This document shows positions 2,497 to 4,982 of a DNA stretch of 48,877 nucleotides, piece by piece. This stretch comes from Alphaproteobacteria bacterium (GTDB lineage Bacteria > Pseudomonadota > Alphaproteobacteria > JAPYRI01): contig JAPYRI010000011.1 in NCBI GenBank assembly GCA_029941135.1, forward strand, positions 1 through 48,877. Direction: 5' to 3'. The notes beneath the pieces were generated by a model, which was not told the origin of the DNA, did not search any database, and saw only the letters and a program-made list of their open reading frames with translations. The position numbers and the translations under genes are program-made. Positions within the stretch are counted from its first letter, which is position 1, and every line of letters starts with the position of its first letter.

Positions 2497-4787
2497 GCCG
2501 CTTTCGCCGCCTGTATGGCCTGCCAAATTTTTTCCGGCCATAACGGCATATCAAGGTCCGTTACACCCAGGTCAGCCAAGCCATTGAGGACGGCGTTAAC
2601 CAGCGCCGGCGGCGCGCCGGTGGCGCCTGCTTCGCCCACGCCCTTGAACCCCATATCATTGTTTACGGTTGGTATTTCGCGCTGATCCACAGCGATATCG
2701 GGAATCATGTCGGCCCTGGGCAGGCCATAGTCCATAAACGAGCCGGTCAAAAGTTGTCCCGAGACCGGGTCATACACACAGTGCTCCAGAAGGGCTTGCC
2801 CAAGTCCTTGAACGACGCCGCCCTGAACCTGACCTTCAACGATCATCGGGTTAACCACCACGCCGCAGTCATTGACCGCCGAGAACCGCTCGATGCTGAT
2901 TTTCCCAGTTGCCGGATCGATCTCGACCTCACAAATATGAACACCGTTGGGGAAGGTTGCGGGAAACTCGGCACAACTGCCCTCGCCTTCAAACCCGTGG
3001 TCGGGGTCGGCTGCCAAATCGAACAGCGAGACCGAACGATTGGTGTCCCGCAAATGAAAATGCCCGTCGGTAAAATCGATATGATCCGGTTGATCGTCGA
3101 GTGCCGTCGCTGCCAGTTCTTTCCCTTTGGACACCAAATCGTCGGCCGCGCGGTGAACAACCGTGCCGCCCGAGACCATGGAGCGAGAGCCCATGGTGCC
3201 GCCGCCACCGGGCAGGGTTTCGCTATCTTGATATAGGAGCTGCACCGCTTCAAAGGGGATGCCCAAGCGCTCGGACACCACTTGCGCAAACGTTGTTTCG
3301 TGACCCTGTCCTTGCGATTGAGTGCCCAAGTGAACACGCACCTGACCCGCCGGATCCACTTCCATGCGGGCATATTCACCCAAAGCGCCGAAAGTTTTCT
3401 CAAGGTAAACACCGATGCCCAAACCTCGGGCCATACCCCGCTCAATCGATGCGGTCCGGCGCGCCGCGAAACCGTCCCGATCAGCCAATTCCAGACCTTG
3501 CTCAAACAAACTCGCGAAATCGCCGCTATCAATCTCCACGCCGGTTGCGGTCTGATATGGCATTTGATCGGGTTGGATAAAGTTTCTACGGCGCAGAACC
3601 TCGGGCGGGATCGACATCTCCCGTGCGGCCGCATCGACCAGGCGCTCGGTCACATAGGCGGCCTCGGGCTTTCCCGCGCCGCGATACGCATCGACCGGCA
3701 CGGTGTTGGTGTAGACACCGCGCACCCGCGCGTGGATGGCCGGAATAACATACGGCACGCCATGGAGCCCAGCCGCGTCGGTCGGGATAAAGGGCGCAAA
3801 CAGTTGAATGTACGCGCCCATACCGGCCATTGTGGACACCCGCATGGCCAAAAACTTGCCGTCTTGATCGAGGGCAAGCTCGGCCTCGGTCACGTGATCG
3901 CGGGCTTGCGCATCGGCGAGGAAAACTTCGTTTCTTGTCGCTGTCCAATTTACCGGACGGCCCAAAAGACGCGCCGCCAGCAAAACCACGGCATGTTCGC
4001 CGTAAGGAAAAATCTTTGCGCCGAAACCGCCCCCCACATCATGGGTCATCACGCGCAGATCTTCCGGCTGAACCCCAAGCGCTGCTGTGGCGAGAGCATC
4101 GCGCAGCACGTGCCGGCCCTGGCAGCCCGCGTAGAGCGTAAATTTCTGTGCGCCCGAGTCATATTCACCAATCGCCGCACGGGGCTCAATCGCACTGGGG
4201 GCGAGCCGGTTATTGACGAGCTGTATGCGTGTCACGTGATGGGCATTGGCAAACGCTTCTTCGGTTTTAGGCGCGTCACCGACGTCCCAATCAAAAGCTA
4301 AATTTCCGGGCGCTTGCGGCCACACGACCGGCGACCCGTCCGCCAAGGCAGTGCCGGTGTCGGTGACCGATGGCAAGGCCTCGTAATCAACCCAAACAGT
4401 GTCCGCGCCATCCGCAGCCGCATCGGGAGTTTCGCCGATGACCACGGCCACCGGGTCGCCCACATGGCGAACGCGCTCCGTTGCCAGCACGGGGTGGGGT
4501 GGCACGGCCATCATGGTGCCATCCCGATTTTCAATCGGCGCAATGCAGGTCAAATTTGACCCGCTGTCGGGCGCCAGGTCCTGATAGGTAAACACGGCAA
4601 GCACTCCCGGCAACGCCAGGGCATCATCGGTCGCAACACTTTTGATGTCCGCGTGGGCATGGGGCGAGCGGACGAAACACGCGTAGGCTTCACCCGGGCG
4701 CGTCAGGTCGTTTGAGAACACCCCTTCGCCTTTCAGAAATCTTTCGTCTTCGACCCTAGGTACAGACTGTCCCACACCGTATTTCAT
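2493..4787 (-). CDS. Xanthine dehydrogenase/CoxL-family molybdopterin-binding large subunit, orphan
   Basis: Large subunit (about 764 residues) of a molybdenum hydroxylase of the xanthine oxidase/aerobic CO dehydrogenase family. The start at 4787 was preferred over one eight codons upstream because a GGGAGGG ribosome site sits just before it and the protein then begins MKYGVGQSVPR, as family members do. Motifs: GGGFGAK (pterin binding), the loop AYRGAGK at about residues 367-372, GQGHETTFAQ, and near the C-terminus GVGEAG with the expected catalytic Glu. The loop reads AYRGAG, as in form II 'CoxL-like' enzymes, not AYxCSFR as in true CO dehydrogenase, so CO is an unlikely substrate. No FAD subunit, no [2Fe-2S] subunit and no maturation gene is adjacent, which is unusual. 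Substrate unknown. Confidence 0.88.
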   Translation of the reverse strand: MKYGVGQSVPRVEDERFLKGEGVFSNDLTRPGEAYACFVRSPHAHADIKSVATDDALALPGVLAVFTYQDLAPDSGSNLTCIAPIENRDGTMMAVPPHPVLATERVRHVGDPVAVVIGETPDAAADGADTVWVDYEALPSVTDTGTALADGSPVVWPQAPGNLAFDWDVGDAPKTEEAFANAHHVTRIQLVNNRLAPSAIEPRAAIGEYDSGAQKFTLYAGCQGRHVLRDALATAALGVQPEDLRVMTHDVGGGFGAKIFPYGEHAVVLLAARLLGRPVNWTATRNEVFLADAQARDHVTEAELALDQDGKFLAMRVSTMAGMGAYIQLFAPFIPTDAAGLHGVPYVIPAIHARVRGVYTNTVPVDAYRGAGKPEAAYVTERLVDAAAREMSIPPEVLRRRNFIQPDQMPYQTATGVEIDSGDFASLFEQGLELADRDGFAARRTASIERGMARGLGIGVYLEKTFGALGEYARMEVDPAGQVRVHLGTQSQGQGHETTFAQVVSERLGIPFEAVQLLYQDSETLPGGGGTMGSRSMVSGGTVVHRAADDLVSKGKELAATALDDQPDHIDFTDGHFHLRDTNRSVSLFDLAADPDHGFEGEGSCAEFPATFPNGVHICEVEIDPATGKISIERFSAVNDCGVVVNPMIVEGQVQGGVVQGLGQALLEHCVYDPVSGQLLTGSFMDYGLPRADMIPDIAVDQREIPTVNNDMGFKGVGEAGATGAPPALVNAVLNGLADLGVTDLDMPLWPEKIWQAIQAAKAA

Positions 4788-4917
4788 AGTGGCACTCCCT
4801 CCCCCGTTCACTGAACGCCGATCATAGCATCATCAGGCCGGGCTTTATGATACCATCAGGAACGCTTACGCGGGATCACCTCCGGTCCCCAAGAGAGGGG
4901 AGGCAGGGCCGAAAACG

Positions 4918-4982
4918 ATGGCTGAGAACAATGTCTGAGAACAATGTCTGAGAACAATGTCTGAGAAAAATGGCTGAAGAAA
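4918..4982 (+). repeat. 13-bp tandem repeat that duplicates the start codon of the acyl-CoA synthetase gene
   Basis: Five head-to-tail units, each starting with ATG: 4918, 4931, 4944, 4957 and 4970. Units 2 and 3 are identical (ATGTCTGAGAACA); units 1, 4 and 5 differ at one to three bases. Each of the first four ATGs opens a frame that hits TGA after six codons (for example stop at 4936-4938 for the first), and only the ATG at 4970 opens the real gene. The good ribosome site (GAGGGGAGG, about 4894-4903) is placed for the first copy, not the last. It looks like slipped-strand expansion of the gene's own first codons. Translation presumably depends on re-initiation across the tiny frames. Confidence 0.85.

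Follow-up and report, generated by a model that had tools for sequence, protein, structure and literature searches.

In Moraxella, repeat tracts lie in the 5'-leaders of uspA2 (AGAT) and uspA1 (G), and their copy number can alter expression (PMC4679880). In marine Beggiatoaceae, TAACTGA direct repeats stand directly before start codons, where they replace the canonical Shine-Dalgarno (SD) sequence (PMC4679880). Mycobacterial interspersed repetitive units (MIRUs) hold an internal ORF that is placed at the start codon for coupling (PMC12548453). Translational coupling has its optimum at distances of -4 to +3, and natural overlaps of -8 (NTGNNTGA) are enriched (PMC12548453). Ribosomes can also be delivered by short leader ORFs (PMC12548453, PMC4833913); in E. 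coli, reinitiation is lost steeply as the distance grows (PMC10666635).

Here, a tandem array at the start codon of an acyl-CoA ligase gene was analysed within a window of 48,877 nucleotides (the whole stretch of DNA examined) from an alphaproteobacterial genome. No closer precedent for slippage between SD and start, or for duplicated start codons, was found in the open-access literature.

Structure of the array

The segment 4918-4982 comprises five 13-bp units with an ATG at the head of each, the fifth being the start of the ligase gene, as a first-pass annotation of the sequence had described. The copies are head-to-tail, near-identical and above chance, i.e. a tandem repeat, and the array exceeds chance by far. 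TRF returned a score of 100 at period 13; across 100 dinucleotide-shuffled versions of the whole window, TRF scores reached 64 at most. The 13-bp periodicity reaches one unit further upstream, where a decayed copy shares 9 of its 13 bases with unit 1, a level attained by 0.14% of the 13-mers in the window. Coordinates of all features are given in Table 1.

Table 1. Units of the array and associated features, numbered by position in the window.
Feature	Position	Strand	Remarks
GGGGAGG, strongest SD-like sequence	4897..4903	+	14 nt upstream of ATG 4918; pairing with upstream CCCC predicted
GGATCACCTCC, 11 nt, in presumed leader	4873..4883	+	single occurrence in the 1.25 Mb sampled from this genome
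Decayed unit 0, AGGGCCGAAAACG	4905..4917	+	without ATG; contains weak AGGG ribosome site
Unit 1, ATGGCTGAGAACA	4918..4930	+	start of uORF1, 4918-4938 (MAENNV*)
Unit 2, ATGTCTGAGAACA	4931..4943	+	start of uORF2, 4931-4951 (MSENNV*)
Unit 3, ATGTCTGAGAACA	4944..4956	+	exactly as unit 2; start of uORF3, 4944-4964 (MSENNV*)
Unit 4, ATGTCTGAGAAAA	4957..4969	+	start of uORF4, 4957-4977 (MSEKNG*)
Unit 5, ATGGCTGAAGAAA	4970..4982	+	opening codons of ligase gene; 10/13 vs unit 1
Intact AMP-binding acyl-CoA ligase, 571 aa	4970..6685	+	PF00501 + PF13193; long-chain fatty acid/PimA-like

No changes separate unit 2 from unit 3. Units 1 and 4 carry one change each relative to these central copies, so that two substitutions in all set the four extra units (1-4) apart. 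The edge units are more distant, with four changes in the gene-side unit 5 and five in the upstream unit 0. Going outward, the distances between units are 0, then 1, then 3-6; the centre is homogeneous and the edges are decayed. The flanks have the A/G-rich GAAAAC / GAAGAAAC in common, and this shared sequence is a plausible seed for slippage.

Ligase gene and overlapping mini-frames

The best NCBIfam models for the ligase were those of long-chain fatty acid and PimA-type ligases, both under their curated cut-offs, and the nearest orthologue showed 68% identity. A crotonase-family gene comes after it, and a molybdenum hydroxylase large-subunit gene is divergent. ATG 4970 is the only plausible start of the ligase gene, because TGA 4949-4951 closes the frame upstream and orthologues align from approximately residue 10.

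Each extra ATG opens a six-codon frame that is closed by TGA, again as first annotated. The four mini-frames overlap and lie in successive reading frames, and the closing TGA of each is supplied by the next unit. This is a mechanical consequence of the unit, because 13 is 1 mod 3 and a TGA lies inside the unit. Across the array, the spacing from stop to start is -8 nt for the next ATG and +5 nt for the next but one. With respect to ATG 4970, the stop of uORF4 is at -8 and that of uORF3 at +5, a stop near the gene start as in described leader ORFs. Both distances plausibly fit the ranges known for reinitiation, and neither is the -4 nt stop/start coupling of MIRUs. Two pure relay paths lead to the gene, one of four -8 hops and one of two +5 hops, from 4918 through 4944 to 4970.

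Ribosome sites and initiation energies

The first-pass annotation had also assigned the best ribosome site to the first copy and almost none to the last. A strong GGGGAGG is indeed present, but its distance of 14 nt falls in the tail of the spacing distribution for SD-like motifs in this genome, which peaks at 5-8 nt, and its mean unpaired probability in a folding prediction was 0.06. The stability of the leader fold showed no excess over shuffles (z 0.07 and -0.46), which leaves the hairpin at the SD as a weak argument. The weak AGGG at 4905-4908 is better placed for copy 1 (aligned spacing 7). The last copy is nearly without an SD, as claimed, but the same holds for all of copies 2-5, where only UGAG is available (~0 kcal/mol). 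The argument from ribosome sites was thus overstated. Of 843 ORFs in this genome with a length of 200 aa or more, only 312 are preceded by an SD-like motif, so SD-poor initiation is normal here.

Initiation energies were calculated from SD pairing, spacing and local unfolding, in a model that is crude, uncalibrated for the organism and ignores reinitiation. ATG 4918 had the best predicted initiation energy within the array (2.9 kcal/mol), the middle copies gave 7.6-9.2 kcal/mol, and ATG 4970 gave 3.6 kcal/mol, vs 3.5 kcal/mol for a repeat-free version of the gene start. On this crude model the insertion would have cost the gene nothing, and ATG 4970 itself looks usable despite the array.

The element GGATCACCTCC in the presumed leader is a copy of the usual 16S rRNA 3' end (anti-SD) according to the class consensus; no 16S rRNA gene was found in this draft assembly. 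One copy was seen in 1.25 Mb, where about 0.6 are expected by chance. On the opposite strand it reads GGAGGTGATCC, an extended SD. Located about 14 nt upstream of GGGGAGG, it might base-pair with this SD-like site or serve as an extended SD of the opposite strand. No sigma-70 promoter or terminator was found in the region, and no known RNA element across the leader and array. A snoRNA match on the leader/array (E 0.85, far under the gathering score) was rejected as a chance hit.

Comparison with orthologues and other genomes

Orthologue starts were read at 38 loci, none from the order of the array genome, and the array was absent from all 38. The genes there either open with a conventional SD and ATG or have an N-terminus that is short and variable. 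When 288 further genomes of the class were searched with a 29-base pattern, allowing up to 3 mismatches, no similar array was found; the array genome is the sole representative of its genus, family and order in the genomes compared. Dispersed copies of the MIRU kind were likewise not seen, with one locus in a search of the array's own genome and none in the 288. Among 1.08 Mb sampled from 60 other genomes of the class, arrays of at least three copies were not seen at any start codon. In a related clade of Rhodospirillaceae (L032, L036, around 2900-3000), the same ligase carries in-frame N-terminal repeats of the GAATCCGGC type (ESGGESGGEAGE...), which argues that the ligase N-terminus, or the 5' end of the gene, tolerates repeat growth.

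Other tandem arrays in this genome

The part of the genome sampled for tandem arrays comprised 1.25 Mb in stretches, with 1,153 ORFs and 46 arrays. Two start codons besides that of the ligase lay within tandem copies. In a ribA-like gene (L106:3839-3886, G000:C18), ATGTCACCTTCGCCC is present three times in frame directly before ATGTCCGCAAGC. Depending on the ATG used, up to 15 extra residues, (MSPSP)3, are added to the protein, and homologues align from residues 5-14 after the last ATGTCACCTTCGCCC copy. At L149:11417-11439 (G000:C41), two in-frame copies of ATGACCGGTAAC lie at the start of a 445-codon ORF. Three arrays over a start were therefore seen (2 by a mechanical start count), vs 2.1 expected under random placement. 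These numbers give no sign of arrays directed to starts, and targeting is not needed. In the sampled 1.25 Mb, the ligase array is the only start array of at least three copies whose unit length is not divisible by three. A perfect 14-bp array of 4.9 copies, CGGAAGTCAGAGAT, was also observed adjoining a run of N (L116:1093-1161, G000:C3); no start was recognised there.

Origin and function of the array

The array is probably a minisatellite that was born by slippage, included a start codon by chance and has been tolerated. From the unit sequences, slippage is almost certainly the origin, since the central units are identical and the edge units decayed, which points to slipped-strand turnover. 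A 13-bp segment with ATGGCTGA, lying between similar A/G-rich stretches (GAAAAC ... GAAGAAAC), would have been duplicated. The copies would then have been homogenised via slipped-strand mispairing in replication, while the edges decayed, with no ATG in the outermost upstream copy. For the ligase, the main route of translation is most likely direct initiation at ATG 4970, from within the A-rich array and independent of an SD. A minor share of its synthesis may come from ribosomes that begin at ATG 4918 and, after termination, reinitiate either by +5 hops through 4944 or by -8 hops. Tolerance would follow from the gene's own ATG staying usable. We infer that a dedicated regulatory role is absent, and the array possibly tunes expression. 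Counting against the tolerated reading, none of the four extra ATGs or the four TGAs has been lost, as selection would also yield, though just two substitutions set the extra units apart, and the position of five 13-bp copies exactly between ribosome site and gene is striking.

The first-pass annotation had raised a translational rheostat or reinitiation relay, in which ribosomes enter at ATG 4918, read a six-codon frame and move on to ATG 4970 by hops of -8 or +5. Copy number would set the number of hops and hence the output; an even number of extra copies permits a path made of +5 hops throughout, and an odd number forces one -8 hop. The spacings throughout the array fall within ranges known for reinitiation, and the predicted energy of ATG 4918 is the best in the array, so the scheme is mechanically coherent. 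It is unsupported over the null, and we consider it unlikely. Its geometry is automatic: any 13-bp duplication over ATGNNTGA gives the same layout, which is therefore not evidence of selection. Ribosomes would be lost at every hop, given the steep fall-off with distance in E. coli (PMC10666635). The SD intended to load the first copy is 14 nt away and predicted to be paired, in a genome where SD-poor starts are common. ATG 4970 scores well unaided, with practically the energy of the repeat-free start in the crude model, and the array is not conserved at the 38 orthologous starts. Its extension to a reinitiation ladder tunable by copy number is more doubtful still. Here slippage would multiply the start codon, and each 13-bp unit would add a step of -8 or +5, with an odd/even effect; the metabolic enzyme would come under graded and heritable control that needs no on/off frameshift.

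Equally improbable is phase or dosage variation, in which frequent gain and loss of 13-bp units within a population would switch or tune translation of the ligase, like the uspA2 AGAT tract. Dependence on repeat number is known for the 5' UTR tracts of uspA1 and uspA2 (PMC4679880). The identical central pair and the decayed edges also imply past turnover at the ligase. However, the array lies outside the frame of the gene, so any copy number keeps the ATG and the frame open and no on/off switch results. The gene encodes a metabolic enzyme, not a surface antigen, and slippage in five imperfect units of 13 bp should be far less frequent than in homopolymers or tetranucleotides. An assembly artefact is very improbable. 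The assembly is in draft state, with 178 contigs, and probably comes from a metagenome, but the 65 bp of the array are shorter than an ordinary read, and misassembly would not produce substitutions between units with gradual decay at the edges. The tolerated slippage array is accordingly preferred over each of these readings as the probable explanation.

If only tolerated, the array is a case of a bacterial start region that accommodates 52 inserted nt, four decoy start codons included, and such decoys are relevant to start-site annotation. Should the number of units in fact set expression, translation would be tuned in a graded and reversible way by simple natural means. Because the repeat is outside the gene's frame, a slippage repeat of this kind that carries a start codon can never close the frame. 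The array is also a ready-made natural test of how far ribosome reinitiation reaches through successive overlapping micro-ORFs.

Relation to known systems

The ligase array resembles uspA1 and uspA2 in having a tandem repeat between promoter and start. It differs from both in its 13-bp unit, which holds the start codon, in its overlapping mini-ORFs and in preceding a metabolic gene, and it is known from one genome. With the Beggiatoaceae repeats it shares tandem repeats immediately before a start codon. Those repeats are 7 bp long, number about 169 sets in one genome and are without ATG, whereas the ligase array is a single locus with an ATG in every full copy. Like MIRUs, it is a repeat at a start codon with an internal ORF positioned for coupling to the gene. 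MIRUs are apparently mobile and dispersed, with -4 spacing; the ligase array is a local slippage repeat with spacings of -8 and +5. It is also like leader ORFs with termination-reinitiation in that a short ORF ends beside the gene start (PMC4833913, PMC12548453). Unlike the starts coupled to such uORFs, that of the ligase is preceded by four overlapping, repeated and putative uORFs of common origin.
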